Shown here piece after piece: positions 16,734 to 44,700 of a stretch of 57,042 bases of DNA. A model generated the notes under the pieces. It did not search any database and was not told the DNA's origin. It saw nothing but the letters and a program-made list of their open reading frames with translations. Numbering within the stretch: position 1 is the first letter of the stretch; every line of letters starts with the position of its first letter. This stretch comes from an uncultured Oscillospiraceae bacterium (lineage in GTDB: Bacteria > Bacillota > Clostridia > Oscillospirales > Oscillospiraceae), in contig CANRFT010000012.1 in the NCBI GenBank assembly GCA_947629955.1, positions 1 through 57,042 on the forward strand, read 5' to 3'. Position numbers and translations under genes: made by a program.

Positions 16734-16760
16734 AGCCCACCCGGGAGGGTGGGCTTTTTC
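16734..16760 (+). terminator. Terminator of the S10-spc-alpha cluster
   Basis: AGCCCACCC (16734-16742) pairs with GGGTGGGCT (16747-16755) around GGGA, followed directly by TTTTC. Strong intrinsic terminator 41 nt after rplQ. Confidence 0.92.
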
Positions 16761-16768
16761 GTGCAACG

Positions 16769-16798
16769 TTGACTTTTGGGGTCAAATGTATGTAGAAT
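16769..16798 (+). promoter_or_regulatory. Promoter of small-peptide module A
   Basis: TTGACT (16769-16774), 18-nt spacer, TAGAAT (16793-16798). The sequence around the -35 (GTGCAACGTTGACT) is shared with copy B. Transcription would begin near 16805 at GAGGGCGCTG. Confidence 0.75.
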
Positions 16799-16857
16799 AA
16801 CGTCGAGGGCGCTGTTACATATGGCGGTCAAGTAACCTCCCGAAAGGGGGGATGCCT

Positions 16858-16953
16858 ATGGAGCACGATCGGCGAACGAAAATCCTTCGTTTTGTAGTTC
16901 GCCTTCTTGTCATCCTCTGGATGATAAGCTGTGTAGTCCAGAAAGCGTACTAG
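16858..16953 (+). CDS. Small hydrophobic peptide A (type I toxin-like)
   Basis: 31 residues: a charged start (MEHDRRTK), then a single hydrophobic span (FVVRLLVILWMISCVV), then QKAY. This is the size and build of membrane-acting type I toxins, but I do not recognise a named family. The Shine-Dalgarno run of G (16846-16851) is locked in a GAAA-capped hairpin with CCTCCC (16836-16841). The ATG at 16852 is too close to that run, so 16858 is chosen. Copy B at 25098-25193 differs by only two residues. The gene is bounded by inverted repeats (16805-16832 and 17007-17030) and faces a convergent antisense promoter. Confidence 0.65.
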   Translation: MEHDRRTKILRFVVRLLVILWMISCVVQKAY

Positions 16954-17033
16954 CCGCCCGGCTTGCACCCGGACGGCTAGCATTTTCTATGCTGCCATCT
17001 TGAGGGCTTGACCGCTGTAACAGCGCCCTCTTT
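16947..17033 (-). ncRNA. Putative antisense RNA A
   Basis: Predicted transcript from the minus-strand promoter at 17040-17067 (TTGACA, 16-nt spacer, extended TGCTATAAT). It runs into the hairpin shared with the peptide mRNA (CTAGCCG arms, about 16950-16980). Its 5' end (GAGGGCGCTGTTACAGCGG) is nearly the same as the 5' end of the peptide mRNA. The 3' ends of the two RNAs would overlap over the terminator hairpin, as in TxpA/RatA-type modules. The ends are estimates. Confidence 0.55.
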
Positions 17034-17039
17034 ATGTTT

Positions 17040-17067: not shown

Positions 17068-17188
17068 GCGGAAAAGAAACAGCTCCGCTGAGCCCGCCCC
17101 TCCGGGGCCGTGTGCAAGAAGTTGTATTGTTATGTAAACTTTCTGTAAATAATTGCGTAAAACGGGGCATTTCGTACATCATTTGTAC

Positions 17189-17218
17189 TTTATCACCCTC
17201 TTTTAGGAGGGTGATAAA
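17189..17218 (+). promoter_or_regulatory. Shine-Dalgarno-sequestering hairpin before fibre gene 1
   Basis: TTTATCACCCTC (17189-17200) pairs perfectly with GAGGGTGATAAA (17207-17218) around TTTTAG. The ribosome site AGGAGG (17205-17210) is in the loop edge and 3' arm, and the ATG is 4 nt after the hairpin. Copies 2 and 3 form the same structure with different bases, i.e. compensated changes. Confidence 0.75.
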
Positions 17219-17221
17219 AAC

Positions 17222-17614
17222 ATGCACCAAACAACCAAATACGCGCTCAACCTGATCGACCCCGCCGACGAGTTCTCGCCGGACCCGCTGAACGAGAACG
17301 CCAACAAGATCGACGCCGAGCTGGCCTGCCGGCCCCGGTATCACCTGTTCCAGTACACCGGCGACAAGCAGCTCACCCGCACCCATACGTTCCCGTTCGA
17401 GCCGCAGATGGTGCTGATCTGGGGTATCGGCAACACTCCGGGTCCGCTGCTGGTGTTTCAGGGGCAGGAGAAGGGGATCATGGCCGGATCGACCACGTCG
17501 TCCAACCAGTTCGATATCTTCTGGAACGAAAAAACTGTCACATTCACCGCCAAAACAACCGCCGGAACGATCTGCAACGGGGACTTACTCTATCGCGGCA
17601 TCGTGTTCGGATAA
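17222..17614 (+). CDS. Phage-tail-fibre-like variable protein 1
   Basis: 130 residues with no signal peptide. The first 26 residues (MHQTTKYALNLIDPADEFSP, then DPLNEN) are identical in three genes here and are encoded by identical DNA. The pattern (Y-L-x-P-x-D, then LNEN and D-x-L) resembles the N-terminal segment of phage tail-fibre or tail-tip proteins. The C-terminal ~90 residues are Gly/aromatic-rich beta-type sequence (FQYTGDKQLTRTHTFPFEPQ) and differ from copies 2 and 3. It lies ~170 nt after module A and converges on SLH1 over a shared terminator. Function unknown; a ligand-binding tip is inferred. Confidence 0.6.
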   Translation: MHQTTKYALNLIDPADEFSPDPLNENANKIDAELACRPRYHLFQYTGDKQLTRTHTFPFEPQMVLIWGIGNTPGPLLVFQGQEKGIMAGSTTSSNQFDIFWNEKTVTFTAKTTAGTICNGDLLYRGIVFG

Positions 17615-17655
17615 AAGAGCCGCCCCCCTCGCAAGAGGGGGGCGGCTCTTTCATG
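17614..17655. terminator. Bidirectional terminator between fibre1 and SLH1
   Basis: A 17-bp perfect stem (17614-17630 with 17635-17651, loop GCAA) has A-runs and T-runs at its ends, so it works on both strands. It serves the fibre1 stop at 17614 and the SLH1 stop at 17679. Confidence 0.9.
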
Positions 17656-17678
17656 TGAGCAGTGAAGCGTGCTCTTTA

Positions 17679-20585
17679 TCAGCCAGCAGAACTTACGCTG
17701 CTGATGTTGTACTCCACAACAGTCACACCGTCAGGGGCAAACACTACGAGCTTTTCGCCCTGCGTGATGTTCCCAGCCGGGGCACTGCTGGTTACCTTGT
17801 AGCTCGCCATATCCTGTTCGGTCTTGTTGGTGGCGACGTTAGTGGACGAACCGTAGTACAGGTTCTGGCCGTCCTCACCGACCAGGTTCATCAGGGCGGA
17901 GGCAGGAACGTTGGAAACGCTACCATGAGTGGTCACGGTGATGTTGGCACCCGCCACGGCGATAGTGGCATAGTTGGCCTCATCAGGCTCACCGGTGGTG
18001 TAGGTATACTCCGCCTTCAGCGCGGTGGACTTGCTGGCCACCTTGGTGACGTACACCTGAGTGGCGGTCTTCACGTTGTTCACCGTCTCAAAGGTGACGG
18101 CCACGAACACGGTGTTGTCGGCGTCCTCGAAGGAGGAGAACTTGCCCTCGGTCAGGTCATAGACCACGCCGTCAGGCACCTGCATGGTGTCGGTTCCCAC
18201 GGTCAGGGTGCCCTCGTAATAGGCGGTCACATTGCCGGCGGCGGAAACGGTGGTAAGCCCACTGTTGGTGATGTCGCCGGTGCCGGACACCTTCACGATA
18301 CCGGCGGTTGCACTGCCGTGAGCGCCGTTGTACACGATCTCGGTCTTCACGCCGTCCAGATACACCTCATAGGTGGTCACAGTGCCGTCAGCGGTAGTCT
18401 GTTCTGTGTAGTTGCCGTTGTAGTAATAGAGGTTCTCGTCCGCGGAGGGAGCGGTGTAGTTGCTCACCATACCGGCGGTGTAGACCAGGGTGCCGGTGCC
18501 GGTGTAGTAGCCGCTGGTCAGGGTAACGCCCTTCAGATCAGCCACGCCCACGACGACCTTCACGGTCAGCGGGTCGGTTGCTTCGCCATAGGTGCCGTCC
18601 ACGAAGAAGGTCACGGAGTTGGCGTTGCCGTACACATTGGTGCTGCTGGTCGCCGTTCCTACCACGTTAGTAGCGATAGCTCCGGGGGTGGTAATGGCGG
18701 TAGTGGGCTGATACAGCAGATAGCTACCGTCGTCCTGGACCTCGTAGGCGTACACGCCGGGGTTCTGGCTCTTCAGGGTGTTGCCGGTCACAGTGTCACT
18801 CTCGGGATCAGCGTCATGGAAGGGGTTGGCAGGAGAGCCGCCCGGAGCGTTCGCCTCAGAGGTGTTGATGGTCACGACCTTGTTGGTGCCGTCGGCGAAG
18901 TACAGCAGGGCCTGGAAACCGGCCTTAGCGGTGCTGCCGATCTCGTCGCTGCCGGCGGTCTTACCAAAGGCGGCCAGATAGACGAAGCCGTTGTCCACGG
19001 CGTCCTCGCCCTCGACCAGCCAGATGGAGACGATCTTGCCGTCAGCGCCCACAACGAACCGATAGGTGTTGCCAACGGTGTTGGTCACATTGCCGCTGCC
19101 CAGCGCGGTGCCGGGGGTGGCGACGAAGCTGTTGAGGTCACCGAGCGTGCCCGTCAGTTCCTGAGCAGCGGCGAAGTCATAGCTGGCGCTGCCGAAGTTG
19201 TACTTCGTGGCGGTAGCGGAAGCGGTGGTGCCGTTGTAGACGGCCTCGATCACGTCGGCGTGCTCGACCAGAGTGGTCACGTCGCCGATCTCGGAGACCC
19301 AGACCACGTCGTTCTTGGCCAGAGGCGCATCGACGGTGATCTCATCGTCCGTATAGTTCTTGGAGGCAGTGCCGTCGTTGAGGGTGTAGGTGGTCACGCT
19401 CTTGCCGCTCACGGTGTTGGTGCGGACAGCGGTGACGACCTTCAGGTCCTTCTCCAGGACGATGTAGTAGTCGACGACCATATCGCTCTCGTTGGCGATG
19501 GCGATGGCGGTGTAGGAAGTGCCAGGCACGGTCCCGTTGGCGGCAGAGATATCATAGTCGCGGACCCACACGTTAGAGGCGGTGGCGGCCTTCAGGCCGG
19601 CGGCCTTGAGGGCCTTGGCCAGGTCGTTGTTGGCGTCCACGTTGATGGTGGCCACCTTGGCGGCATCATCCACCACGGCGTAGACCACGCCGTCAGTGCT
19701 GCCCTTGCCGTTCTCGGTGTAGTACACCTTCACCTTGTGGCCGATCAGATCCAGGCCGGCCTCGCCCTTGTAGGTCTTGGTGCCCACAGTGATGGTGCCG
19801 TTGGTGGCGCTGGTATCGTCATTCTCGGCGCAGGCGGTCAGGACGCCGGTCTCGCAGAGGGCGGTAATATCAGAACCGCTCCTGGTGATCTTGCCGCCGA
19901 ACACGCTCTCGTACAGAGGAGTGTCGTTGCTGGTGCCGGGATTGAAGGTGATGGTGCCGTCGGGAGCCACGACCCAGGAGCCCTGGGAGGTGATCCGCTT
20001 GGACATGATGGTGTTGAACGCCATCTGCGCGGCGGCCTCACGGGTCAGGGGCTCGTCGTTGATGGTGCCGGCGGGCAGACCCTTGTCCAGGCCGTTGGCC
20101 CGCAGGGCGGTCATGACCTTCAGCTCCCAGCCGGTGCCGGTGTAGTTGTCACCGTTGTCGCCCAGAGCGACCAGAACCAGCTTGCCGAAGCCAAAGCCGT
20201 TGACTTCCTGGGTGGGATAGAAGTGGCCCTGGCCGTCGCCCACGACGATGTTGGCGACGCTGCAGTAGTTGATGGCGCTGGAGCCCCAGTCGGTGGCCTT
20301 CACGTCGCTGAAGGAATCAGCGGGGGGCAGGACCGCCACGGTGTCGGGGCCGAGGATCATCTTGGCGATGAGTTCGGCCGCGGCCGCGCGGGTGAGGGTG
20401 CGGTCAGGATAGTAATGGCCTTGGCCGTCGCCCTGCAGGACCTTGAGCCCGCTCATGACGTCGACGGCTTCCTTGTAGTCGATGTCGGCGTCGTCGTCAT
20501 AGCTGGTGGCGTTGACGGTGACCATCACGGAGACGACCATCATCAGCGCCAGCACCAGCGCGAGGAACTTCTTCAAGTTTCTCAT
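17679..20585 (-). CDS. S-layer-homology surface protein 1 (SLH1)
   Basis: 968 residues. ATG 20585 is chosen because AAGGAGGAAAA lies just upstream and a signal peptide follows (MRNLKKFLALVLALMMVVSV, cleavage near residue 25); the longer frame from 20717 reads untranslated leader. Three SLH motifs follow at about 34-80, 90-142 and 148-197 (GDGQGHYYPDRTLTRAAAAE; GDGQGHFYPTQEV; LTREAAAQMAFNTI), which anchor proteins to pyruvylated wall polymers. The remaining ~770 residues are Thr/Ala/Gly-rich beta-type repeats without a recognised enzyme domain. It shares the signal peptide and a 17-nt leader element with SLH2 and SLH3, but the body is different. I see no consensus promoter upstream. Confidence 0.88.
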   Translation of the reverse strand: MRNLKKFLALVLALMMVVSVMVTVNATSYDDDADIDYKEAVDVMSGLKVLQGDGQGHYYPDRTLTRAAAAELIAKMILGPDTVAVLPPADSFSDVKATDWGSSAINYCSVANIVVGDGQGHFYPTQEVNGFGFGKLVLVALGDNGDNYTGTGWELKVMTALRANGLDKGLPAGTINDEPLTREAAAQMAFNTIMSKRITSQGSWVVAPDGTITFNPGTSNDTPLYESVFGGKITRSGSDITALCETGVLTACAENDDTSATNGTITVGTKTYKGEAGLDLIGHKVKVYYTENGKGSTDGVVYAVVDDAAKVATINVDANNDLAKALKAAGLKAATASNVWVRDYDISAANGTVPGTSYTAIAIANESDMVVDYYIVLEKDLKVVTAVRTNTVSGKSVTTYTLNDGTASKNYTDDEITVDAPLAKNDVVWVSEIGDVTTLVEHADVIEAVYNGTTASATATKYNFGSASYDFAAAQELTGTLGDLNSFVATPGTALGSGNVTNTVGNTYRFVVGADGKIVSIWLVEGEDAVDNGFVYLAAFGKTAGSDEIGSTAKAGFQALLYFADGTNKVVTINTSEANAPGGSPANPFHDADPESDTVTGNTLKSQNPGVYAYEVQDDGSYLLYQPTTAITTPGAIATNVVGTATSSTNVYGNANSVTFFVDGTYGEATDPLTVKVVVGVADLKGVTLTSGYYTGTGTLVYTAGMVSNYTAPSADENLYYYNGNYTEQTTADGTVTTYEVYLDGVKTEIVYNGAHGSATAGIVKVSGTGDITNSGLTTVSAAGNVTAYYEGTLTVGTDTMQVPDGVVYDLTEGKFSSFEDADNTVFVAVTFETVNNVKTATQVYVTKVASKSTALKAEYTYTTGEPDEANYATIAVAGANITVTTHGSVSNVPASALMNLVGEDGQNLYYGSSTNVATNKTEQDMASYKVTSSAPAGNITQGEKLVVFAPDGVTVVEYNISSVSSAG

Positions 20586-20885: not shown

Positions 20886-20974
20886 GGCGGGAAACCCCCG
20901 CTTTGGCACAGATTGCACGTTTTTCTACAACTTGAGGATATTGTTTCACTTTTATTACAAAACACGCCGGACCC

Positions 20975-21004
20975 TTGACAGCGGCGAATGGCCGGGTCTA
21001 TAAT
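20975..21004 (+). promoter_or_regulatory. Promoter of SLH2
   Basis: TTGACA (20975-20980), 18-nt spacer, TATAAT (20999-21004): both hexamers are consensus. It is the only consensus promoter I find upstream of any of the three SLH genes. The 5' leader would be about 105 nt and contains the conserved 17-mer at 21035-21051. Confidence 0.85.
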
Positions 21005-21115
21005 GGGGCCAGCCTGAGGAGGGGACTTTGGCGCTTGAGAGGATGGCTTATCCCATCCTTTCCCGCGAAAAAGTTCGCAAAATCGGCAAATTTAATTTGA
21101 GGAGGAAAAAATCCT

Positions 21116-24061
21116 ATGAGAAACTTGAAAAAGTTCCTCGCGCTGGTCCTGGCCCTGATGATGGTCGTCTCCGTGATGGTCACCGTCTCCGCCGCGGACT
21201 ACACCGACCAGGCCGACATCGATTACGATGAGGCCGTGGCGGTCATGACCGCCGTCGGTATGGTCGAGGGCGGCGATCAGGGTCAGTTCGACCCCGACAG
21301 CAACCTCACCCGCGCCCAGGCCGCTACCCTGATCGTGCGGCTGCTGCGGGGCACTGAGGAGGGCCTCGGCGCCCCCACCGCTCCCTTCATCGATGTGCCC
21401 GCCACCCACTGGGCTGCCGGCGCCATCAACTACTGCTCCCTGAACAACCTCATCGACGGCGACGGCCAGGGCCACTTCTACCCTGACGAGGGCGTCACCG
21501 GCGTCCAGATGGCCAAGCTGCTGCTGGTCGCTCTGGGCTATGACAGCAAGAACGAGGGCTTCACCGGCGCCGATTGGGAGCGCAATGTCGCTACCATCGC
21601 CCTGGGCAGCAAGGTGAATATGCTCAAGGGCGGCAACTTCGCCATCGACAAGAAGGAGATCAGCCGTCAGGAAGCCTGCCTGATGGCCTTCAACACCATC
21701 CAGGCTGAGACCGTGGAGTATTCCGGCGGCACCAACGTGACCCTGGCCGACGGCACCACCATCACCGTGAACGCCACCCGCACCTACTCCGGCGCGGCTA
21801 ACCCGTTCTACACCAGGTACGACCTGAAGCCTTATGCTTCCAGCGACTCCGCCAAAGCTGATGACGACGCCTTTGGCCGCGACTCCACCCCCAAGTGGGT
21901 CAATGATAAGGGCGATGCGGTCGTTTACGCCGAGCCCAGCACGGCCACCAAGACCTACACCAAGAAGGCCGATGCCGCCCAGTTCGCGAAGGACTATCCT
22001 GATGCTCACACCAAGGTTGCCTCTGCCATCAGCGGCAATGGCGTCTATGTGGACGGTGCGCAGGATAAGACCACAAAGACTGTCAGCGCTATCGGGGGTC
22101 TGATCAAGAACGGCACCACCGTTGAGGTCTACTCTACCAAGTCCGGCGACGAAATCACCATCAACAACGTGGTGGTCATCAAGACCTATGCCAAGAAGCT
22201 GGCCGACACCGACATCAAGGCCGCTAAGGGCGAAACCCCCGCTTACATCGTTCTGGGCGGCGCTAACTATCCCACCACCGCCTACAAGGCCGGCGACGTG
22301 GTGAGCTACAACCTGGGCAAGGACGACGAGGACAACACTGTGGCCCTGAACGTGAAAGCCCTGACCCCCTCCATCACCGGCAAGGTGACCTCCACGGGCA
22401 CCGATCCCAAGCCCACCGAGGCGTCCTATGTCCGCGTTGAGAAGGGCGACAAGCTCTATGCCAACGAGACGTTCACCGGCTTTGCGACCGCTCTGGCGCT
22501 GGGCAACACCCAGAAGGACGTCTATCTGGACGACGCCGGCTTTGTGCTGTTCGCCGAGGACCATAAGAACGATGACGCCCCCGCCGCCGAGACCAACTAC
22601 CTCTACATCCTGACGTATGAGGCCGCCGCTGGCTCCGGCACCGGCACCATGATCGACCAGACCGGCACCGACGCCCAGGTCAAGGCCAAGGTCCTGGATC
22701 CCGCCACCGGCGAGACCTCCGTGATCGACATCGCCATCGTGAAGGACGGCAACACCTGGTACTATGCCAAAACCGACGGCACCAAGGGCGCGAAGGTCGA
22801 GAATGAAGGTATCTCCGGTACGGAGACCAAGCGGAACAACACCTTCGTCACCTACACCGAGACCGACCTGGGCTATGTGCTGGGCGATACCGTGGGCGTG
22901 ACCAAGGCTGAGGACCTGGCCATCGCGCAGGGCAAGGCCGAGGTGACCGTGACCAAGGACGGCGCAAAGCGCTACGCGGACGCCAACACCCGCCTGGTCG
23001 TCATCGAGGTGGAGACCAAGGACGACGCGTCCACCTACACCGTGAAGACCGACGTGACCGGCTACACCAACTTCCCGGCTGTCAAGGGCGACGCGAGCAC
23101 CAATGTCCTGGTGACCCCCGACTCCGGCGCTGTCAAGGCCATCTATGTGATCCAGAACAAGGCGAGCGAAACCACCACCCCCGTGGGCGTGTACGCCGGC
23201 AAGGGTGAGACCACCGCGGACGGCACGACCTATCAGTTCTATGTGGACGGCGCGCTGACCGACTATGTGAGCGCCAATGCGGAGCTGAAAGATACAAACG
23301 CGTCCGCTGAGCTGGCGGCCGGTAAAGTGTATGCGCTGACCGTCACGGACGGCAAGCTGACCAAGGCTGACAGCACGGAGGGCACTCTGACCAGCGCGAA
23401 CCTCACCAAGGTCGAGGAGACCACCGGCCTGGAAATGGTGACCGACTCTTACGTGGTCCTCAGCGACGGCTCCACGATCCATTATCTGGCTGACGGCTGC
23501 GCCGTGTACACCACCGAGACCGACGCGAATGATAACAAAACCGTTTCCACCACCACCGTGGGCGTTGGCGACAAGGTGACCATGTACACGGACAAGACCA
23601 AGGAGAGCAAGGTCGTGCTGATCATCGTCGATGCGAAGTACGACAAAGCCGCTGACACCAGACTGTCCGGCACCGTCGTGGTGAAGGAAGTCAATGCCGG
23701 CAGCGTCACCCACAAAGAGGGTAAAGGCCTGACCAAGGATGACATCACCGCCAAGGTGGACCGTTCCGGCAAGGTGACGATCACCCTAAAGGCTGGCACC
23801 GAAAACAAGTATATTGCCGACAACGCGACAATCACCCTGACCTTTAAACCTGAGGTGAGCGGCGCTCAGATCCAGGAATCGACGAGCGCACAGAGATACG
23901 GACCCACCGTGGACCTCACATTTACCTGCGCTACCGCAAGCAATGGGACGTGGGCTCAAACGAACAACAAGGTGAAGATTCAGGCCTCTGACGGGACGGA
24001 AGGTACCGAGATTACCATCACGGTTGCAAACATCGACGGCGTTGAGGAAGACAAGGCTTGA
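21116..24061 (+). CDS. S-layer-homology surface protein 2 (SLH2)
   Basis: 981 residues, with GAGGAGGAAAA before the ATG. Signal peptide MRNLKKFLALVLALMMVVSV is followed by three SLH motifs: about 35-75 (FDPDSNLTRAQAATLIVRLL), 88-140 (GDGQGHFYPDEGVTGVQMAK) and 146-200 (ISRQEACLMAFNTIQ). From 81 nt upstream of the ATG to about residue 222 it is nearly identical to SLH3; beyond that the two are homologous but strongly diverged. The long C-terminal part is Thr/Asp/Lys-rich beta-type sequence with motifs such as DPATGETSVIDIA. It is probably an exported S-layer or cell-wall protein. It has a consensus promoter and is likely the expressed member of the set. It converges with fibre gene 2. Confidence 0.9.
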   Translation: MRNLKKFLALVLALMMVVSVMVTVSAADYTDQADIDYDEAVAVMTAVGMVEGGDQGQFDPDSNLTRAQAATLIVRLLRGTEEGLGAPTAPFIDVPATHWAAGAINYCSLNNLIDGDGQGHFYPDEGVTGVQMAKLLLVALGYDSKNEGFTGADWERNVATIALGSKVNMLKGGNFAIDKKEISRQEACLMAFNTIQAETVEYSGGTNVTLADGTTITVNATRTYSGAANPFYTRYDLKPYASSDSAKADDDAFGRDSTPKWVNDKGDAVVYAEPSTATKTYTKKADAAQFAKDYPDAHTKVASAISGNGVYVDGAQDKTTKTVSAIGGLIKNGTTVEVYSTKSGDEITINNVVVIKTYAKKLADTDIKAAKGETPAYIVLGGANYPTTAYKAGDVVSYNLGKDDEDNTVALNVKALTPSITGKVTSTGTDPKPTEASYVRVEKGDKLYANETFTGFATALALGNTQKDVYLDDAGFVLFAEDHKNDDAPAAETNYLYILTYEAAAGSGTGTMIDQTGTDAQVKAKVLDPATGETSVIDIAIVKDGNTWYYAKTDGTKGAKVENEGISGTETKRNNTFVTYTETDLGYVLGDTVGVTKAEDLAIAQGKAEVTVTKDGAKRYADANTRLVVIEVETKDDASTYTVKTDVTGYTNFPAVKGDASTNVLVTPDSGAVKAIYVIQNKASETTTPVGVYAGKGETTADGTTYQFYVDGALTDYVSANAELKDTNASAELAAGKVYALTVTDGKLTKADSTEGTLTSANLTKVEETTGLEMVTDSYVVLSDGSTIHYLADGCAVYTTETDANDNKTVSTTTVGVGDKVTMYTDKTKESKVVLIIVDAKYDKAADTRLSGTVVVKEVNAGSVTHKEGKGLTKDDITAKVDRSGKVTITLKAGTENKYIADNATITLTFKPEVSGAQIQESTSAQRYGPTVDLTFTCATASNGTWAQTNNKVKIQASDGTEGTEITITVANIDGVEEDKA

Positions 24062-24097
24062 GAGACCGATAACCTGGTTCTTTCACACCGACACACG

Positions 24098-24127
24098 AAA
24101 ACCCCCGGACATTCGTCCGGGGGTTTT
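24098..24127. terminator. Bidirectional terminator between SLH2 and fibre2
   Basis: AAAACCCCCGGAC (24098-24110) pairs with GTCCGGGGGTTTT (24115-24127) around ATTC. Symmetric A/T runs serve both the SLH2 stop (24061) and the fibre2 stop (24138, minus strand). Confidence 0.92.
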
Positions 24128-24137
24128 CCCTTTGTGT

Positions 24138-24548
24138 TCAGCTGTTGGTCCCAAGCGCGAGATAGCTGTACCGGATGTTCGAGGCGTTCAGCTGCTCCAC
24201 GTCGCTCTCATTGTTATACCACTCGACGGCGTTGTCCAGCCAGGTCAGATTGACGCTCTGATACTCCGCCACCTGGCCGGTATTCGCGTTGCGGAGCCAG
24301 ACCCAATTTCCGGCGGAGTAGCCACCGTTGGTCGCCACGATGACCAGCATGATCGGCTTGAAGCTGAATTGCAGCCGGTTCTTGTTGGCGGAGCCGTATT
24401 TGCCGCTGCCGGAATAGCTGCTGTGGGCGAACACCAGGCGCTTGCCCAGCTCGGCGTCCAGGCTGGTGAAGTTCTCGTTCAGCGGGTCCGGCGAGAACTC
24501 GTCGGCGGGGTCGATCAGGTTGAGCGCGTATTTGGTTGTTTGGTGCAT
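24138..24548 (-). CDS. Phage-tail-fibre-like variable protein 2
   Basis: 136 residues from ATG 24548. The first 26 residues and codons are identical to copies 1 and 3; the C-terminal ~100 residues are unique in detail. They follow the same plan: Y-x-G-x-G-K, then a beta segment (RLQFSFKPIMLVIVATNGG) and aromatic repeats. There is no signal peptide. The frame stays open upstream into the tandem-repeat block to 24869, but that part is low-complexity Arg/Pro/Gly sequence. The ribosome site hairpin and the shared ATG context fix the start at 24548. Function unknown; a fibre tip or carbohydrate-binding role is inferred. Confidence 0.6.
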   Translation of the reverse strand: MHQTTKYALNLIDPADEFSPDPLNENFTSLDAELGKRLVFAHSSYSGSGKYGSANKNRLQFSFKPIMLVIVATNGGYSAGNWVWLRNANTGQVAEYQSVNLTWLDNAVEWYNNESDVEQLNASNIRYSYLALGTNS

Positions 24549-24552
24549 GATT

Positions 24553-24577
24553 TTATCCCTCCCATGGGGAGGGATAA
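24553..24577 (-). promoter_or_regulatory. Shine-Dalgarno-sequestering hairpin before fibre gene 2
   Basis: TTATCCCTCCC and GGGAGGGATAA form an 11-bp perfect stem with a 3-nt loop just upstream of the minus-strand ATG. The ribosome site GGGAGGG lies in the arm next to the start. It has the same fold as copy 1 with different base pairs. Confidence 0.75.
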
Positions 24578-24618
24578 GGGGCGGGGGGTTGTATGGGTTT
24601 GTGCAAGGGATATTGTAG

Positions 24619-24885
24619 GGGCCGCCCCGCGTGGCGGCCCGCGTCTCGGTCGGGGGTTTCGTGTCGGGGGGTGTGTCGGGGGGCCGCCCCGCGTCTTGAA
24701 CCGGCGATTCCGTGTCGGGGGGCCGCCCCGTGTGGCGGCCCGCGTCTCGGTCGGGGGTTTCGTGTCGGGGGGTGTGTCGGGGGGCCGCCCCGCGTCTTGA
24801 ACCGGCGGTTCCGTGTCGGGGGGCCGGCCCGCGTCTTGAACCGGCGGTTCCGTGTCGGGGGGCCGCCACATGGGGCGGCCCCTAC
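24619..24885. repeat. GC-rich tandem repeat block
   Basis: Two ~101-bp units (from about 24619 and 24720) are followed by an extra ~39-bp partial unit. They are built from CCGCCCCGCG, GTCTTGAACCGGCG and TTCCGTGTCGGGG modules, and the block ends in a palindrome (GGGGCCGCC...GGGGCGGCCCC type) near 24859-24882. It lies in the gap between fibre2 and module B. There is no stop in one minus-strand frame, probably because of composition. Confidence 0.75.
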
Positions 24886-25330: not shown

Positions 25331-25570
25331 CAACGTGGCAATAGGAGTACCAAGGCCCCCTTCGCAAAGGGCCGATTCCCCCTGTCAAGGGGAAATGGCC
25401 GTAGGCCAAAAGGGGGAGGCTTAAGGGCGGAGAAAATCTTCCGTCAGCCCTTCGGGCTGCCACCTCCTTTTGCGAAAGGAGGTTTGGCGATTCTGCCGCA
25501 ACGTCGCAATAGAAGTACCAAGCTCCCTTCGCAAAGGGAGCTGGCACGGCGAAGCCGTGACTGAAGGTTT
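25331..25570. repeat. Cluster of palindromic repeats before fibre3
   Basis: A ~24-nt sequence (CAACGTGGCAATAGGAGTAC plus CAAG) occurs at 25331 and, with two changes, at 25499. Each copy is followed by a stem with loop TTCGCAAA (GCCC/GGGC; GCTCCCTTCGCAAAGGGAGC). Between them are further palindromes (CAGCCCTTCGGGCTG; CCTCCTTTTGCGAAAGGAGG). No gene is seen in 25320-25611. Confidence 0.7.
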
Positions 25571-25611
25571 TCTCCAAAAATGTTGCCCTCCCCCATACAA
25601 CCCCCCGCCCC

Positions 25612-25636
25612 TTATCCCTCCCCATGGGAGGGATAA
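25612..25636 (+). promoter_or_regulatory. Shine-Dalgarno-sequestering hairpin before fibre gene 3
   Basis: TTATCCCTCCC (25612-25622) pairs with GGGAGGGATAA (25626-25636) around CAT, 4 nt before the ATG. About 30 nt upstream of it are also shared with fibre2 (CATACAACCCCCCGCCCC). Confidence 0.75.
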
Positions 25637-25640
25637 AATC

Positions 25641-26039
25641 ATGCACCAAACAACCAAATACGCGCTCAACCTGATCGACCCCGCCGACGAGTTCTCGCCG
25701 GACCCGCTGAACGAGAACGCCCAGATCATCGACGCCGCCCTGGCCGGGAATCTCCGCTGGAAGTACGGCTCCTATGTGGGCAACGGACAGAGCGGCGAGA
25801 AAAACCCCCGAACGCTGACCTTCGACTTCAAGCCGCTGTTCGTGGCGGTCACCCACGAGACCAGCGCCAGTTTCCGCGACTGGTGGGTCCGGGGCGAAAA
25901 ATACGGCTTCGCCAACAGTGCGAGTACTTATCTGACCTGGACGGATAACGGGGTGTCCTGGTACTCTGCCGGTGACGGCGGCCAGTTCAACGAACAGTCC
26001 AAGAAATATTATTATCTCGTCATTGGCAGCAAGGAGTGA
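25641..26039 (+). CDS. Phage-tail-fibre-like variable protein 3
   Basis: 132 residues. It has the same 26-residue head as fibre1 and fibre2, then AQIIDAALAGNLRWKYGSYV and a distinct C-terminal part with the same layout (YVGNGQSGEKNPRTLTFDFK, then FVAV and aromatic-rich strands). No signal peptide or membrane span. Its 3' side once faced SLH3; the terminator between them is split by the mobile element that begins 25 nt after this stop. Function unknown. Confidence 0.6.
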   Translation: MHQTTKYALNLIDPADEFSPDPLNENAQIIDAALAGNLRWKYGSYVGNGQSGEKNPRTLTFDFKPLFVAVTHETSASFRDWWVRGEKYGFANSASTYLTWTDNGVSWYSAGDGGQFNEQSKKYYYLVIGSKE

Positions 26040-26050
26040 GTGCAAAGAAA

Positions 26051-26063
26051 CCCCCGGCTCAAT
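26051..26063 (+). other. Left element junction (attL) with half terminator
   Basis: CCCCCGGCTC (26051-26060) is the left arm of a terminator whose right arm GAGCCGGGGG is at 41521-41530. CAAT (26060-26063) is shared with CAAT at 41516-41519. Joining across it restores a 10-bp stem with loop AATA, like the other fibre/SLH terminators. Confidence 0.75.
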
Positions 26064-26100
26064 CGGGCGGGCTGGATAAGGAAACATTTTGTATGTACGG

Positions 26101-26130
26101 CAAGGTGCAGTCTTTCGGGACTGCACCTTG
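26101..26130. terminator. Hairpin downstream of the recombinase gene
   Basis: CAAGGTGCAGTC (26101-26112) pairs with GACTGCACCTTG (26119-26130), 7 nt beyond the recombinase stop. There is a modest T-stretch on the + side only. Likely the terminator of the element operon. Confidence 0.65.
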
Positions 26131-26136
26131 TCCGTT

Positions 26137-27816: not shown

Positions 27817-27862
27817 GTTAACTCCTTTCCTGACAACCGGGCATTGCAAAGGCGATTTTATT

Positions 27863-28042: not shown

Positions 28043-28052
28043 AACTACCTCC

Positions 28053-32750: not shown

Positions 32751-32763
32751 CACAACCACCCCC

Positions 32764-32824: not shown

Positions 32825-32838
32825 CGTGGGAGTGAACT

Positions 32839-39161: not shown

Positions 39162-39274
39162 GTTATTGAAGAATTACATAATCGAGTACCTCAAATTCCT
39201 ATTAGACACGGAATACATAGCGGAATGGGATCAGAAAAATAATTTCAGACAAAGGCAAGCGTGGAGATAAGACA

Positions 39275-40158
39275 ATGAATTTAGATGATGAAAAAAAGAA
39301 CTATCGTAATCTGGCAATAGAACTATTCGCCATTCAAGAAAAACTGGACCAGGGAACATACGAAGAAGCATTTGATAATTTAGCTCGGCATTTTGTTCAT
39401 ACATTACCACAGCTGAAGCTATACAGATACAGATCAAATTTAAATTGGAGATATTCCCTACCTATAATTGAAAGAAACACAGTGTATCTGTGCCCATTGG
39501 AAAAGCAAAATGACCCGTTTGAATTTGCATTTAATGATGATTTTGGTGAGATTGTGAAGAGAGTGCCGATATTGAGGGAAGGGAGGAATTTTAACATATT
39601 GAGCAGTGCATCGCATTTTCAAGATGCGTTGAAAAATCTATGTAAGGAATTGAATTTATATAAAAAGAAAATCTCAGTCGCCTGTTTTAGTGAAGAAAAA
39701 GACAATATATTATTATGGGCACATTATGCTAATAATCACAAAGGAATATGCATTGAATATTCTGCGTTAGATTTATTGCAGTTGTTTCAGTGTTTCTTGT
39801 TACCCGTTATATATCAAAAAGACCTTCCTACGCTATCAAGCATTATGGAAATCAATTCGTTGTCCTCATACAAATTGCGTTTGAACGTATTTCTACGAAA
39901 TCGGACATATGGAACTATGAAAAAGAGTGGAGGGTAATAAAGTATTTTGATAATGAAACTGATGATCATTATGTAGAGTTTCCAAAGCCAACTGCAATTT
40001 ATCTTGGGGCTAATGCAAGCAGCATATCGTGGAATAGAGTATTAAAGACTTGCGCTACAAAAAAGATACCTCTGTACGTTATGGTGCCAGATAAATATTC
40101 ATTTTCTTTGACAGATAAGCTAATATATGATCCACATAAAAATAGAGAAATAATTTGA
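39275..40158 (+). pseudogene. DUF2971 gene with a frameshift
   Basis: The first part (39275-39937) contains the DUF2971 hallmarks LYRYRS, NDPFEF, SVACFSEEKDNILLWAHYAN and GICIEY. The conserved ending (IWNYEKEWRVIKYF onward, to 40158) continues in another frame. Adding one A to the AAA at 39898-39900 rejoins the frames cleanly, giving a ~294-residue protein. The gene is very AT-rich. DUF2971 proteins are common in defence islands but their activity is unknown. It may be a true 1-nt loss or a sequence error. Confidence 0.75.
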
Positions 40159-40237
40159 AGCATCCTGAGAATCATGAATTCCCTTGCAGATATGAAAAAC
40201 ACCAACGAGGAAGTTACCCATCCATAGAAAAAGAAAT

Positions 40238-40270
40238 CCCAGGAAAGCATTTCTGCTTCCCTGGGGCTTC
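40238..40270. terminator. Hairpin between DUF2971 and the secreted-protein gene
   Basis: CCCAGGAAAGCA (40238-40249) pairs with TGCTTCCCTGGG (40254-40265), one mismatch, followed by CTTCTTTCTTTCC. It lies between convergent genes. Confidence 0.6.
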
Positions 40271-40316
40271 TTTCTTTCCCTAACAATTCCTGAGATTTGG
40301 CTGCTAAATCGTAGTC

Positions 40317-40958
40317 CTACTTTATCCACGCTCTCGACAAGTCGAAGTTGCTGATGGTATAGCCGTTCATCGCATTGGCATTGCCCAGGGGGAGGTTGCC
40401 GTAGGAGAAGTACATCGTCACAGTGTAGCCCGGTACGAGTTCCTGGGCCTCAGCCGCCATCTTCTCGCATTCGGCCCGGATGGTGGAGAGGTCCATGGAC
40501 TTCCACCATGCCATGAACTCCGTTTTGCTCATGGAGCCGGAGTAGTCGGCGTTGAAAATCCTTTCGGAGCCGTAGTTGGTAACGGGTGTCTCCGTGACCG
40601 TCCACTGGCTGGAGAAGGAGGAAACGCTGGGCACGGGAGCCGGAGCAGAAGCGGCGGCCTTGCCAGGGTCGTTGACCACCGCCATGTTGCGGGAGCCATC
40701 ATAGCTGACCTCCAGGCCGTAAGCCTCGGCCAGCGCCCGGAGAGGAGCGTAGGTGGTGCCGTTGTAGACGAACACCAGCACATCGTTCCCGTTCACATCC
40801 TTGGGCTTGAACACTTCGCCGTTGACCATGACGTTGATGGGACTGCCGGTGATGGTGAACGCGCCGCCGGCGGCCAGGGCGGGCAGAGACACGGAGCAAA
40901 GGATCAGGGCGACGACAGCGCCCATGAGGAAAGAAACGAGCCGGTTCTTGTTTTTCAT
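40317..40958 (-). CDS. Secreted protein with stalk (copper-amine-oxidase-N-like) domain
   Basis: 213 residues from ATG 40958, with GGAGGT 7 nt upstream. Signal peptide MKNKNRLVSFLMGAVVALIL, cut after ALA. Next comes a stalk-type domain (INVMVNGEVFKPKDVNGNDV; TTYAPLRALAEAYGLEVSYD), typical of clostridial surface or secreted proteins. An Ala/Pro linker and a C-terminal domain of unknown type follow. It is cargo of the element; role unknown. Confidence 0.75.
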   Translation of the reverse strand: MKNKNRLVSFLMGAVVALILCSVSLPALAAGGAFTITGSPINVMVNGEVFKPKDVNGNDVLVFVYNGTTYAPLRALAEAYGLEVSYDGSRNMAVVNDPGKAAASAPAPVPSVSSFSSQWTVTETPVTNYGSERIFNADYSGSMSKTEFMAWWKSMDLSTIRAECEKMAAEAQELVPGYTVTMYFSYGNLPLGNANAMNGYTISNFDLSRAWIK

Positions 40959-40996
40959 GATATGTACCTCCAAATAGTTAGTATTGTGGGACCTAC

Positions 40997-41347
40997 TCAG
41001 GAATAGATCAGTTCGTTCAGTATCACCTCCTCAGCGGCGTTGCGGATGTTGTTCATGGCACCTACCCAGGCCATCTGGTCCTGGGCCTTGAGCCGCTCTG
41101 TGACACCCTGCTCTGCCGCCATCTGGCGGGTCAGCTGCTCGAACATCTCTGTGGCCTGCTGGTTGATCTGTGCGAGGTGGGCGTTGAGCTTGCCTGAAAG
41201 AAGCATCCCGGTGTAGATCCCGTTGCGGTGCTGCCATAGGTACTTCTTTCTTCTCATTCCCCAGATACCCGTCGGGACGTCCTCCGGGGCAACCAGGTCT
41301 GGGATCAGGTAGTCACCCTCCCGGTGGTACGTCAGGTTTGCGCTCAT
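40997..41347 (-). CDS. tnpV: Transposon-encoded TnpV-like protein
   Basis: 116 residues from ATG 41347, with AAGGAGGTC upstream. The sequence YHREGDYLIPDL, the region GMRRKKYLWQHR and the ending WVGAMNNIRNAAEEVILNEL match the TnpV family of Tn4451-type elements. The function in the family is unknown. It lies at the right end, opposite the recombinase. Confidence 0.8.
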   Translation of the reverse strand: MSANLTYHREGDYLIPDLVAPEDVPTGIWGMRRKKYLWQHRNGIYTGMLLSGKLNAHLAQINQQATEMFEQLTRQMAAEQGVTERLKAQDQMAWVGAMNNIRNAAEEVILNELIYS

Positions 41348-41419
41348 TTCTTGACCTCCTTCCTTTGATGGCTTTATTGTAGCAGTCACCGTTCCAAAAG
41401 ACGAATGTGCGAAAAAGAA

Positions 41420-41460
41420 AACGCTCAGAAAAGCATTTTCTGCCTTTCTGAGCGTTTTTC
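41420..41460. terminator. Bidirectional terminator at the right end of the element
   Basis: AACGCTCAGAAA (41420-41431) pairs with TTTCTGAGCGTT (41445-41456), with A-run and T-run flanks. It stops transcripts at the element border in both directions. Confidence 0.88.
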
Positions 41461-41515
41461 GCCTCTACAATGCCAATATTTAGCTTCTCAAAATTACTTC
41501 CTTATTGTGCCGGAA

Positions 41516-41530
41516 CAATAGAGCCGGGGG
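41516..41530 (+). other. Right element junction (attR) with half terminator
   Basis: CAAT (41516-41519) then AGAGCCGGGGG. GAGCCGGGGG (41521-41530) is the right arm complementary to 26051-26060. The T-rich CCTTCTTT that follows is the terminator tail, left stranded upstream of the SLH3 stop. Confidence 0.75.
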
Positions 41531-41564
41531 CCTTCTTTGCGTAGTTCGTTGAAATCGGGGTGGC

Positions 41565-44510
41565 TTACTCCGCCGCGTCGGCAGTCAGGTTAGTGAGGGA
41601 CCCCTTCATGGACAGGGTAATCTCATCCACGGCCTCGGTCCCGTCGGCGGAAATGACCTTCACCTTAGCGGGAGAAGCGGTCCAGCTCGAATCGTAAGTG
41701 AACGTGACGCTCACGGACTCGGCGTAGCTGTCAGCGGTGCTGGCCTTGATGCCCGCACCGTTGACCTTCGCCTTGAGGGTCACGGTGACAGAAGCGCCCT
41801 TGCCGAAGTAGGTCTCCGACTCGGAGCTGGTCTTGAGTTCCAGCTCGCCGGTCGCGCTGATCTCAGCGCTCAGGTCACTCCGGTCGGCCTTCTTGTCATC
41901 CGACTCGTGGCTCTGGGTTGTACCGGCGTTCCAGGCGGTGATCTCAGCCACGGTGGCCAGGTCGGTATCCTTGATGGCCTGGTCGGCAGCCTCGATGATG
42001 ATCACGGAGATCGGGTTCTCGGCATTGATGGTCTTGGTCGGGTCGACGGCATAGGCCTTCACCTCATCATACAGGGACAGGCTGCCCACGGAGACCTTCT
42101 TGGTGTCGGTCCCGGTCACCAGATAGACCACATAGTCCGCGGCCACATCTTTTTCCTTGTTGGTCTTAAACACGATGTAGTCGTCCTCGATGTGCGTGAC
42201 CTCATCCTTGGTCGAAATGGAGCCGGTGTCAGAGGTCTGCGCTTCAGCGTTAAGCAGCGCGCTGCCGCTCACGGTCAGCTTGTAGTATGTGCCGATGTTG
42301 GTCGACGTAAGCGCGGAGCCGAGGGTCACGCCGTCGCCGCTCTTCCAATAGTAGGTGGCAGGCTGGCCGTTGACCAGGAAGTTCTGGGCTGCGCCGTCAG
42401 CGCTCGTCTCACCGTCGCCGGTGAAGATGCCGTACACGGCGCTGCTGGTCTGCTTGTTGATCACCACATACACGTTGGTGGCGGCCCCGGAGGCGCCCAC
42501 GATGGTGTAGGCGGCCTTGGTGCCGGTCAGAGTCTGGAAGTTGGTGTAGCCGGTGATCGTCTCAGCCTCATAGGTGGGCGCGTCAGCGGTGCCGCCCACG
42601 GTGACGACGGTCAGCTTGGTATCGGCGTTCACATACACCTTGTCGCCCGTCTCAGTCGTGAGCTGGCGGCCGCCCTGGGTGTAGTCCAGGCTGTTGTCGG
42701 CGCCATCGCCCACAACGCTGATGCCCAGCTTGCCATCATCCTGTGCCACGGCGGCGACGAAGTGTTTGTCAATAGAGCCGTAGGAACCCCCATCGTTACC
42801 GAAATCCACGGTGGCTTTGCCCTCAGCGTTCACGATTTTCCAGGTGCCGTTGTCGTTCTTCACGGCCAGATCGATCACGGAGGTCTCGCCGGTGGCGGGA
42901 TCCACCACGCTGGCCACGGCCACGCCGTCAGTGCCGGTCAGAACGCTGCCGGCGGTGCCCTTCCGGGTCTCCACCTTGATCACATAGTAGTAGGTCAGGG
43001 CGGTCTCCTCCTGGGCGGTGGCGTGCTCGGTCAGGTACACCACATAGCCGTAGCTGTCGGTATACACGTCATAGCTGGTGGTGCTGCTGGGGAGAACCTT
43101 GCCGAACACGGTGCCGGTCAGTTCAGTGGCGGCCTTATAGTACTTGGTGGCAGCGCCGTCCAGACGGATGTACTTCGCGGTGCCGGTGGTGCCGGTGTGG
43201 GTCACCTTGGCCACGGTGGGCTCCAGCTTGGTCAGCTCGCCGATGACGGCGTCGCCGTCGCTATTCTGGCCCACGGTGTAGAGCACGATGTCGCCCACGG
43301 CCAGGCCGGCGTCGGGATAGCTGGCGCCGCTCAGATTGACATGGGCGGGCACGGTGTCGGTCGCGGCAATAAAGTCGCTCTTGATCAGCTTCCTCACGTG
43401 CTCCTCAATGACCACGATCTTGGTGATTACCTTTTCGGCGTTGGCATAGACCTCGACGCGCTTGCCGTTACCGGTCAGGCCCATGATCCGCTTGGCAGCG
43501 GAATCATTAGAAGATCCAAAGCTCTCGGGCACACCGTCTCTGGAAACGATGCCGGCAGCGAGCGTATCGTTAGTAACACCTTCGGTCGCGGACACAGTGC
43601 CGCTGGCAGCTTTGCCGATTTGATAGCCGGTCAGCGCGTCATTGACGGTCTTGATCTCGGTCACTTCGTCGGTGAACACGGCCACGGTGGCGGCGGCCTC
43701 GTCATAGACGGACTTGTCGTCATAGGTCCACTTTTGAGTGGTGGGGCGATCGAACTCGTCGGTGGCGCCCGCGGTCCCATCGGCGCTCACGTTCTCCAGC
43801 TTGCCGTTGTACTCGGTGGTGTAGAACGGGTCTTTGGAATAATTGCGGGTGGCGTTCACGGTGATGGTGGTGCCATCGGACAGGGTCACGTTGGTGCCGC
43901 CGGAATACTCCACAGTCTGGGCCTGGATGGTGTTGAAGGCCATCAGGCAGGCTTCCTGACGGCTGATCTCCGCCTTGTCGATGGCGAAGTTGCCGCCCTT
44001 GAGCATATTCACCTTGCTGCCCAGGGCGATGGTAGCGACATTGCGCTCCCAATCGGCGCCGGTGAAGCCCTCGTTCTTGCTGTCATAGCCCAGAGCGACC
44101 AGCAGCAGCTTGGCCATCTGGACGCCGGTGACGCCCTCGTCAGGGTAGAAGTGGCCCTGGCCGTCGCCGTCGATGAGGTTGTTCAGGGAGCAGTAGTTGA
44201 TGGCGCCGGCAGCCCAGTGGGTGGCGGGCACATCGATGAAGGGAGCGGTGGGGGCGCCGAGGCCCTCCTCAGTGCCCCGCAGCAGCCGCACGATCAGGGT
44301 AGCGGCCTGGGCGCGGGTGAGGTTGCTGTCGGGGTCGAACTGACCCTGATCGCCGCCCTCGACCATACCGACGGCGGTCATGACCGCCACGGCCTCATCG
44401 TAATCGATGTCGGCCTGGTCGGTGTAGTCCGCGGCGGAGACGGTGACCATCACGGAGACGACCATCATCAGGGCCAGGACCAGCGCGAGGAACTTTTTCA
44501 AGTTTCTCAT
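41565..44510 (-). CDS. S-layer-homology surface protein 3 (SLH3)
   Basis: 981 residues. Signal peptide and three SLH motifs are nearly identical to SLH2 through about residue 222; the first 180 residues differ hardly at all. The C-terminal ~755 residues then follow the same plan but with low identity (DPATGETSVIDLAVKNDNG; GETSADGAAQNFLVNG). The near-identity also covers the 81 nt upstream of the ATG, up to the conserved 17-mer (44575-44591), and stops there. It has no consensus promoter upstream, so it may be a silent or differently controlled allele. Its head is inverted relative to SLH2. Confidence 0.9.
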   Translation of the reverse strand: MRNLKKFLALVLALMMVVSVMVTVSAADYTDQADIDYDEAVAVMTAVGMVEGGDQGQFDPDSNLTRAQAATLIVRLLRGTEEGLGAPTAPFIDVPATHWAAGAINYCSLNNLIDGDGQGHFYPDEGVTGVQMAKLLLVALGYDSKNEGFTGADWERNVATIALGSKVNMLKGGNFAIDKAEISRQEACLMAFNTIQAQTVEYSGGTNVTLSDGTTITVNATRNYSKDPFYTTEYNGKLENVSADGTAGATDEFDRPTTQKWTYDDKSVYDEAAATVAVFTDEVTEIKTVNDALTGYQIGKAASGTVSATEGVTNDTLAAGIVSRDGVPESFGSSNDSAAKRIMGLTGNGKRVEVYANAEKVITKIVVIEEHVRKLIKSDFIAATDTVPAHVNLSGASYPDAGLAVGDIVLYTVGQNSDGDAVIGELTKLEPTVAKVTHTGTTGTAKYIRLDGAATKYYKAATELTGTVFGKVLPSSTTSYDVYTDSYGYVVYLTEHATAQEETALTYYYVIKVETRKGTAGSVLTGTDGVAVASVVDPATGETSVIDLAVKNDNGTWKIVNAEGKATVDFGNDGGSYGSIDKHFVAAVAQDDGKLGISVVGDGADNSLDYTQGGRQLTTETGDKVYVNADTKLTVVTVGGTADAPTYEAETITGYTNFQTLTGTKAAYTIVGASGAATNVYVVINKQTSSAVYGIFTGDGETSADGAAQNFLVNGQPATYYWKSGDGVTLGSALTSTNIGTYYKLTVSGSALLNAEAQTSDTGSISTKDEVTHIEDDYIVFKTNKEKDVAADYVVYLVTGTDTKKVSVGSLSLYDEVKAYAVDPTKTINAENPISVIIIEAADQAIKDTDLATVAEITAWNAGTTQSHESDDKKADRSDLSAEISATGELELKTSSESETYFGKGASVTVTLKAKVNGAGIKASTADSYAESVSVTFTYDSSWTASPAKVKVISADGTEAVDEITLSMKGSLTNLTADAAE

Positions 44511-44700
44511 AGGATTTTTTCCTCCTCAAATTAAATTTGCCGATTTTGCGAACTTTTTCGCGGGAAAGGATGGGATAAGCCATCCTCTCAAACAAAAAAT
44601 TCCCATAAAAAGTAAATATCGGTCAAAAAAAGGGAGGAAAAATCGAAAAATAACGGTCAAAAAAAGAGGAGATACAATCGTTGGGGATAAACTCCTCTCA
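44511..44700 (-). promoter_or_regulatory. SLH3 upstream region
   Basis: The first 81 nt upstream of the ATG are identical to the SLH2 leader, including the 17-mer at 44575-44591. Beyond it the sequence is AT-rich with a 13-nt direct repeat (CGGTCAAAAAAAG at 44620-44632 and 44654-44666; TTGACC on the coding strand). No good -10 follows at the right distance. No gene is seen. Confidence 0.5.

Follow-up and report, generated by a model that had tools for sequence, protein, structure and literature searches.

The sap locus of Campylobacter fetus combines one promoter with a set of promoterless cassettes that share conserved 5′ heads but differ in their tails, and the S-layer (surface-layer) genes slpA and slpB of Lactobacillus acidophilus, known for their inversion, are inverted with respect to each other and have a conserved 5′ block. 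A locus with these traits is described here, in a 57,042-nt stretch of DNA (contig CANRFT010000012.1, called the window at its full length) from an uncultured Oscillospiraceae bacterium, where genes for S-layer homology (SLH) proteins are paired with genes for small proteins built like tail fibres. Among gene transfer agents (GTAs), that of Rhodobacter capsulatus (RcGTA) has fibre and capsule genes that lie away from the main RcGTA cluster. Its tail fibre rcc00171 and head-spike fibre rcc01080 are reported to bind cells, and rcc01080 adjoins, by locus number, the receptor-making capsule genes rcc01081-rcc01086 (PMC10218006). In Faecalibacterium, the GTA-like operon of FpGTA is accompanied by a second operon with the baseplate, fibre, receptor-binding protein and lysis genes; GTA-like packaging was also reported in Oscillospiraceae (Onthomonas), and among the metagenome-assembled genomes searched in that work, Onthomonas among them, a strong candidate operon was reported only in a Faecalibacterium one (PMC12946183). 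Finally, the S-layer protein SlpA of Clostridioides difficile is reported to be recognised by phage receptor-binding proteins (PMC10100898, PMC9615553).

We propose that S-layer cassettes, each with a fibre gene of its own, are switched at the locus in the window, and that these fibres are the dispersed tail fibres of a GTA-like particle, a reading that we consider rather probable. A cassette would consist of a conserved SLH head, a variable tail and its own tail-fibre gene; one cassette per genome would stand behind a strong promoter, the others being promoterless copies, and recombination between heads would bring another tail, plus its fibre, behind that promoter. The particle would be GTA-like, predicted to package and transfer DNA, and would derive from a compact terminase-capsid-portal-contractile-tail cluster on another contig of the source genome (C8); the shared fibre head would dock on its baseplate, and the tip would recognise the S-layer tail. 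This suggests that coat protein and fibre are kept as matched lock-and-key sets. What carries the proposal, at the level of sequence, is the fibre/SLH pairing, the single promoter, the co-occurrence of fibres and cluster, a shared palindrome, a hairpin that sequesters the Shine-Dalgarno (SD) sequence and, in one relative, a fibre in canonical position. The features of the locus are as follows.

17147..17221, plus strand: leader of fibre1, with the SD-sequestering hairpin right before the ATG (hairpin z -7.4)
17222..17614, plus strand: fibre1 (130 aa), conserved head and tip domain
17604..17661: inverted repeat, a terminator-like hairpin common to fibre1 and SLH1
17679..20585, minus strand: SLH1, S-layer cassette; the top promoter match in 300 nt is 7/12
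20912..20931: weak copy of the palindrome, 204 nt 5′ of the SLH2 start (score 8.0)
20975..21004, plus strand: perfect sigma70-type promoter 5′ of SLH2, the proposed expression site
21022..21790, plus strand: conserved SLH head block of SLH2, starting shortly past the promoter; its inverted copy is 43836-44604
21116..24061, plus strand: SLH2, S-layer protein gene (981 aa)
24097..24128: hairpin resembling a terminator, in the gap from SLH2 to fibre2
24138..24548, minus strand: fibre2 (136 aa)
24549..24623, minus strand: leader of fibre2, with the palindrome CTTGCACAAACCCATACAAC and an SD hairpin
25566..25640, plus strand: leader of fibre3, with a degenerate palindrome and an SD hairpin
25641..26039, plus strand: fibre3 (132 aa)
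26040..41564: mobile-element region separating fibre3 and SLH3 (ends approximate)
41565..44510, minus strand: SLH3, S-layer cassette (981 aa), with no promoter-like site upstream
43836..44604, minus strand: conserved SLH head block of SLH3, inverted copy of 21022-21790

The array of paired fibre and SLH genes is real and conserved, and the observations of the initial annotation, which had described three such units, were partly confirmed. As it had stated, fibre1, fibre2 and fibre3 are identical over 26 N-terminal residues, and the leader MRNLKKFLALVLALMMVVSVMVTV is common to SLH1, SLH2 and SLH3 (the SLH signal peptide was assigned by eye only). At the DNA level the fibre genes share repeats of 112-161 nt with 91-94% identity. 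Past the heads, however, the fibres do not differ completely, as had been claimed: aligned with fibre1, fibre2 has 35% and fibre3 43% identity, and the C-terminal ~90 residues, far from being unrelated tails, form one divergent domain in all three. The near-identity of SLH2 and SLH3 followed by divergence was borne out as an inverted 769-nt block with 98% identity, which extends from 94 nt upstream to about codon 225, and in each of SLH1, SLH2 and SLH3 two stretches matched the SLH domain (PF00395). The convergence of each fibre gene on an SLH gene across a terminator applies to fibre1/SLH1 and fibre2/SLH2, which have 71 and 83 nt, respectively, between their stop-free frames and carry terminator-like hairpins there, but not to fibre3 and SLH3, which face each other without being adjacent, their stop codons lying 15.5 kb apart with the mobile element between.

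It had been proposed to ask whether each fibre gene of the genome neighbours an SLH gene. The source genome has five fibre genes and five related SLH genes, and every fibre gene has one of the latter as its partner; of the two further pairs, the one on contig C24 is convergent, and in the one on contig C16 the fibre gene directly follows the 3′ end of the SLH gene in the same direction. The SLH family as a whole gave 68 domain matches in this genome, over many additional open frames. A profile of the five fibres matched in 36 of 119 genomes (the source genome included), 29 of them in the 42-genome genus. Sixty regions around the matches were retrieved, three G071 contigs with matches being left out, and they contained 84 profile-matching open reading frames (ORFs). 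The 14 ORFs without the head start codon were excluded (convergence on an SLH gene is seen for 11 of them, but not for the other 3), leaving 70 head-bearing fibres from 31 genomes. Consistent pairing in relatives, on which half of the refutation test set by the initial annotation turned, was strongly supported, with 51 of these 70 converging on an SLH gene verified by a hidden Markov model (45 complete genes and 6 cut by a contig end). Another 13 face a long ORF truncated by the contig end ahead of its N-terminus; 12 of the cut ORFs match verified SLH proteins (E ≤3e-21) and one does so weakly (0.003), and same-strand alternative frames gave no match. This partner search covered the opposite strand only; with both strands allowed, 10 of the 13 had their longest frame on the same strand. 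As for the rest, one fibre lies directly 3′ of an SLH gene, one (fibre3) faces SLH3 across the mobile element, two are at contig ends, and two face other genes and are the exceptions to the pairing. The gap between fibre and SLH gene measured 51-209 nt (median 82), and 59-101 nt in 56 of 64 cases. The same pairing was observed in other genera (G055, G063, G071) and, with a different head, in another family (G106). In addition, 40 loci were found in a collection of named genomes, 23 labelled Oscillospiraceae, one Candidatus Enterenecus merdae, and the rest uncultured bacteria, Clostridiales or Bacillota.

We then considered how the SLH genes might be expressed. The promoter of SLH2 is TTGACA-18-TATAAT; no promoter-like site was found within 600 nt upstream of SLH3, and the matches of SLH1, SLH3, SLH4 and SLH5 did not exceed 9/12. 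Because only SLH2 has a perfect promoter and the repeated head begins just downstream of it, the window looks like a cassette-switching locus. Promoters were scored in the 40 SLH genes whose MRNLKK start is readable and for which ≥280 nt of upstream sequence is available, and a gene was taken as promoter-bearing when at least 10 of 12 positions matched within 230 nt. Among the 13 genomes with at least two readable cassettes, exactly one was promoter-bearing in 11, none in 2 and more than one in 0, a result equalled by a random distribution of promoters in 33 of 5000 shuffles. Furthermore, ungapped similarity between the promoter-bearing and the other cassettes stopped short of the promoter in 18/18 comparisons. 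As read from promoter matches, the SLH layout is that of an expression site with silent cassettes, and both traits of sap/slp-type loci, conserved 5′ heads with divergent tails and a single promoter-bearing expression site, were found.

The heads are more alike within than between genomes (73% versus 56% identity for the fibre head, 66% versus 48% for the SLH head), while the tips (34% versus 31%) and the SLH tails (33% versus 27%) differ little, so that a role of the heads as putative recombination handles is plausible. The interpretation given in the initial annotation is partly supported: the surface-variation or modular locus it had envisaged agrees with the single promoter-bearing cassette per genome and with the similarity that ends before the promoter, and switching would be the predicted consequence. 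Alternatively, there could be no switching at all, the SLH heads being alike through recent duplication and the promoterless copies using other promoters or decaying. No inversion was seen, and tip and tail partners travel together in part, as vertical inheritance of whole loci would also give. Nevertheless, long open frames without a promoter match, a single promoter in 11 of 13 genomes and similarity that always ends before it fit silent cassettes, and this, with heads more alike within genomes, makes the alternative unlikely.

The fibre is composed of a head of ~36 residues, an optional coiled coil (assigned by eye) and a tip of ~90 residues. Family searches gave weak matches to phrog_24898 'tail fiber protein' (9 of 68 members, best E 1.4e-4) and to Pfam DUF7483 (11 of 68 members, best E 6e-6); the window fibres themselves had no match in these searches, and relatives in the PDB were limited to weak, implausible matches. 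In one genome of another family, G094, a head-and-tip fibre is located directly behind tail I of the particle cluster, the canonical tail-fibre position; this tail I matched that of the source genome (BLASTP E 1e-11) and, below the cut-off, Mu_Gp48. The position, from a single genome, suggests that the gene family is one of tail fibres. In the genus of the window the fibre genes are unlinked to the cluster, and in its family they lie at S-layer loci; no head or tip match was found in the cluster regions of the genus. The tip domain is also present in fibres downstream of Baseplate_J genes at prophage-like loci of G034 and G035. A search for the fibres as phage genes was unsuccessful: with tblastn, three fibres had no match in 50,697 phage records, and in IMG/VR one scan gave no relative and another a single short one. 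Likewise, no head or tip match was present in 58 capsid-bearing IMG/VR loci, of which only 14 reach tail I. The earlier idea of a cytosolic partner of the S-layer protein falls short in that the fibre most likely belongs, as a tail fibre, to a domesticated phage-like particle encoded at another place in the genome.

The proposed particle cluster of the source genome is compact, lies between recD2 and mreB on contig C8 (L139), ends in tail I and contains no fibre gene. Terminase, capsid, portal, sheath and baseplate genes were assigned by family; the tube, a protease-like protein and a 218-aa protein located where a tape measure is expected were assigned by position only. Pfam matches for the terminase, Phage_capsid_4, the sheath and LysM/DNA_circ_N were over the cut-off, those for the portal and Mu_Gp48 were below it, and PHROG matches were obtained for the major head (3e-111), portal (4e-157) and sheath (7e-44). 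The same gene order, whole or in part, was found in 14 of 19 other regions retrieved around Baseplate_J genes of the genus; in other genera the cluster is present with a small rearrangement, and mreB is on a different contig. The capsid gave one match per genome in 45 of 119 genomes (31 of 42 in the genus), and in the cluster-less G011 and G025 recD2 is beside mreB with ~1.1 kb between them, as an empty site. Of the features that define gene transfer agents, a head, packaging and tail gene cluster is present, as is a fixed, vertically conserved single-copy site, with recD2/mreB flanks where the genus regions reach them. As a side observation, contig C44 of the same genome (L141) carries two adjacent long Baseplate_J frames of 695 and 1003 aa, which we take to be reminiscent of an extracellular contractile injection system.

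The cluster and the fibres occur together. Baseplate_J was detected in 29/29 genus genomes positive for the fibre profile and in 3 of the 13 others. In G034 the profile match was a tip only, in the prophage-like fibre, so that 28 genus genomes have head-bearing fibres; every one of them belongs to the 31 with the capsid, and such fibres are absent from all 11 capsid-negative genomes (Fisher p 9e-8, relatedness ignored). These data bear on a further alternative, that the fibre is no part of a particle but a small partner of the S-layer (a chaperone, an export inhibitor or an adhesin) built like a phage fibre by chance. The near-constant convergence on SLH genes and the lack of tblastn matches in phage records for three fibres would agree with it. 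The capsid in all 28 of these genomes, the fibre behind tail I in G094 and a palindrome common to fibres, cluster and lysis genes argue against it, and we regard it as quite improbable.

This palindrome, TTGCAC-N8-GCAAC, is located ~60 nt upstream of most fibres. At 54 of 69 fibres it exceeded the 99% control level, a count that is partly circular because 26 fibre sites, besides 7 cluster sites, went into the training of the matrix; the SLH and lysis sites were outside the training. Where upstream DNA is available, it precedes the first cluster gene as well (7/7 starts). A scan of the genus gave 54 matches in 36 of 42 genomes, compared with 6 for the reversed pattern. Of the 54, 20 precede the capsid gene by 2.0-2.6 kb on its strand, a further two mark cluster starts, and others are at fibres; with the 20 and the two, the palindrome stands at the cluster in 22 of 31 capsid-positive genomes. 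The palindrome also precedes holin-amidase (lysis) cassettes in 11 of 17 capsid-positive genomes and in 0/3 capsid-negative ones, where no holin was found; the background was 61 sites of such score in 1767 kb, true sites included. The cassette was first found via the palindrome in G041 and G034, neither of which is among the 17. Moreover, it lies ~205 nt upstream of 12 of 16 SLH genes with a promoter, versus 1 of 24 without. Given the site they share, the cluster, the fibre and lysis genes and the S-layer promoter taken to be active are probably one regulon. At two sites, L193 and L195, the palindrome was observed before hrcA (HrcA confirmed by Pfam in L193), a possible heat-shock link.

Two more alternatives have to be weighed here. 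The particle could be bacteriocin-like or a defective prophage, whose fibres target the S-layers of competitors or siblings while the paired SLH gene marks target or self, with no gene transfer. The reported role of SlpA as a phage receptor in C. difficile, the holin-amidase cassettes that share the palindrome and a related capsid in a 46.7-kb phage record are in line with this; the cluster nonetheless keeps genes for terminase, portal and capsid, which would be superfluous in a tail-only bacteriocin, and in Oscillospiraceae host DNA is reported to be packaged in a GTA-like manner (PMC12946183), so that we consider it fairly unlikely. The fibres could also be decoys that shield the cell against phages using the same S-layer as receptor, their tip being homologous to fibres of prophage-like loci. 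This would leave unexplained both the palindrome shared with cluster and lysis genes and the co-occurrence, no secretion signal was evident by eye in the fibre, and it appears very improbable indeed.

The fibre leaders have a structure of their own. In 60 of 70 fibre genes the ATG is preceded by a stem of ≥7 pairs whose 3′ arm contains the SD sequence, and all five leaders of the source genome fold better than each of 200 shuffles. In the leader alignment A3 compensatory changes were counted in 25 cells, compared with 8.8 in shuffles, but A3 (46 of 58 leaders) was picked mostly for a visible hairpin and its count therefore leans towards structure; the 60/70 count covers all genes. Nearly all strong matches of the leader model in the genus genomes are at fibre genes, the sole other place at E <1e-5 being G034:C112. 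Such a hairpin predicts translational shut-off of read-through transcripts, and production of the particle may entail that of all fibres, given that every one of them possesses a leader, and mostly also a palindrome, of its own. From here a more specific view can be put forward tentatively, that of receptor-ligand co-cassettes: each S-layer variant would be stored together with its cognate fibre, a recombination event that exchanges the coat would take this fibre with it, and particles with all fibres would dock on any coat variant of a sister cell. Recognition of the partner tail by the tip is proposed on the basis of the S-layer phage receptors reported of C. difficile and from a slight tip/tail correlation. 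Over 66 of the 70 pairs (the 13 cut ORFs, the fibre3-SLH3 pair and the C16 pair included), tip and tail similarities covaried with a Pearson r of 0.50, against a mean of 0.43 in within-genome shuffles, 2 of 2000 of which reached the observed r. Strict co-evolution of tip and tail was not upheld, the covariation being weaker than hoped.

A number of observations weigh against the cassette-switching and GTA-like reading. Switching, expression and particle are predictions from sequence, and the genomes are phylogenetically related. With a 300-nt instead of a 230-nt window, a second G019 cassette reaches 10/12. The tip/tail covariation is modest (the rank version, Spearman, was reached in 124 of 2000 shuffles), and in G016 the same tip occurs in two fibres whose SLH partners have different tails. 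As regards co-occurrence, 12 capsid-positive genomes have no head-bearing fibre by profile (G013, G034 and G041 in the genus; G042, G044, G064, G065, G070, G072, G085, G102 and G107 outside it). A tip-type fibre had been expected in all cluster-positive genomes, but a re-search of the 11 other than G034 with the tip profile gained none. In G065 a head-bearing ORF on the cluster contig (L167:3-548) is cut by the contig end and has no recognised tip in the part available, and G106 and G079 have tip matches without a match to the cluster capsid. As regards the palindrome, 6 of the 54 scan matches lie in 5 capsid-negative genomes; fibre1 of the window has no good copy (score -2.3), and the fibres of G055, G063 and G071 lack it; and lysis cassettes without it occur in the source genome, in G004, G007, G029 and G030 (its four closest relatives by capsid) and in G002. 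Finally, the best capsid matches in phage records were five unannotated faecal contigs of 4.7 to 46.7 kb (54-66% identical), and of 58 IMG/VR relatives 56 are on contigs of ≤14.3 kb; the 46.7-kb faecal record, with a 60% identical capsid, implies that a real phage relative may exist. Many of the compared genomes are fragmented, and several counts use pattern rules set on part of the same data.

The surroundings of the array were also inspected. Ribosomal protein genes (assigned by eye) extend to 16692, just 5′ of fibre1, and an S10-Clostridia ribosomal protein leader at 391-461 was the sole Rfam match in the window. A 101-nt unit is repeated upstream of fibre2 (24618-24858). Type I toxin-antitoxin-like modules were recognised by eye at 16741-17080 and 24982-25260, and at L002:6195-6660, by a short hydrophobic ORF, 5′/3′ pairing and strong convergent promoters; related DNA was found ≤900 nt upstream of 15 of 66 fibres (3 being those of the window) versus 2 of 200 control windows. 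The mobile-element region encodes a Resolvase/Recombinase (serine recombinase), a ParB-like protein (ParB_N), a Relaxase, NikA/MobC and TnpV, as well as a 1865-aa protein (33564-39161) with DUF4011, AAA helicase-type domains and an MTES_1575 nuclease domain; no direct repeat was detected in the two short stretches compared at its ends.

If the proposal is correct, it would join S-layer antigenic variation and gene-transfer particles, which are usually studied apart, and would show in principle how a particle keeps recognising kin with a changing surface; under co-cassettes, gene exchange would stay within the kin group despite antigenic variation. The cluster, with the dispersed fibres and lysis genes, is a candidate locus for the GTA-like DNA packaging reported in Oscillospiraceae, and the array yields matched receptor-ligand gene pairs open to direct in vitro testing. 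Among the top matches listed in our literature search, which leaves out most subscription journals, a pairing of S-layer and tail-fibre genes was not described in titles or abstract beginnings. Compared with the closest systems, the C. fetus sap locus has a different anchor and no paired fibre genes, and switching is predicted at the present locus; slpA/slpB of L. acidophilus comprises two genes and no fibre genes, whereas up to five cassettes plus fibres are found per genome here. For C. difficile SlpA, unlike the window, a paired receptor-fibre cassette is unmentioned in the abstract beginnings (PMC10100898, PMC9615553). FpGTA resembles the present system as a GTA-like operon in a gut Clostridia relative, but it is described as most likely podovirus-like, in contrast to the contractile-tail cluster found here, and the terms S-layer, SLH and sheath never occur in the main text of that paper (PMC12946183). 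RcGTA provides the precedent of a fibre gene beside receptor genes, by locus number, its receptor being a polysaccharide, while here SLH proteins in several interchangeable cassettes would take that place and the cluster is of the contractile-tail type (PMC10218006).

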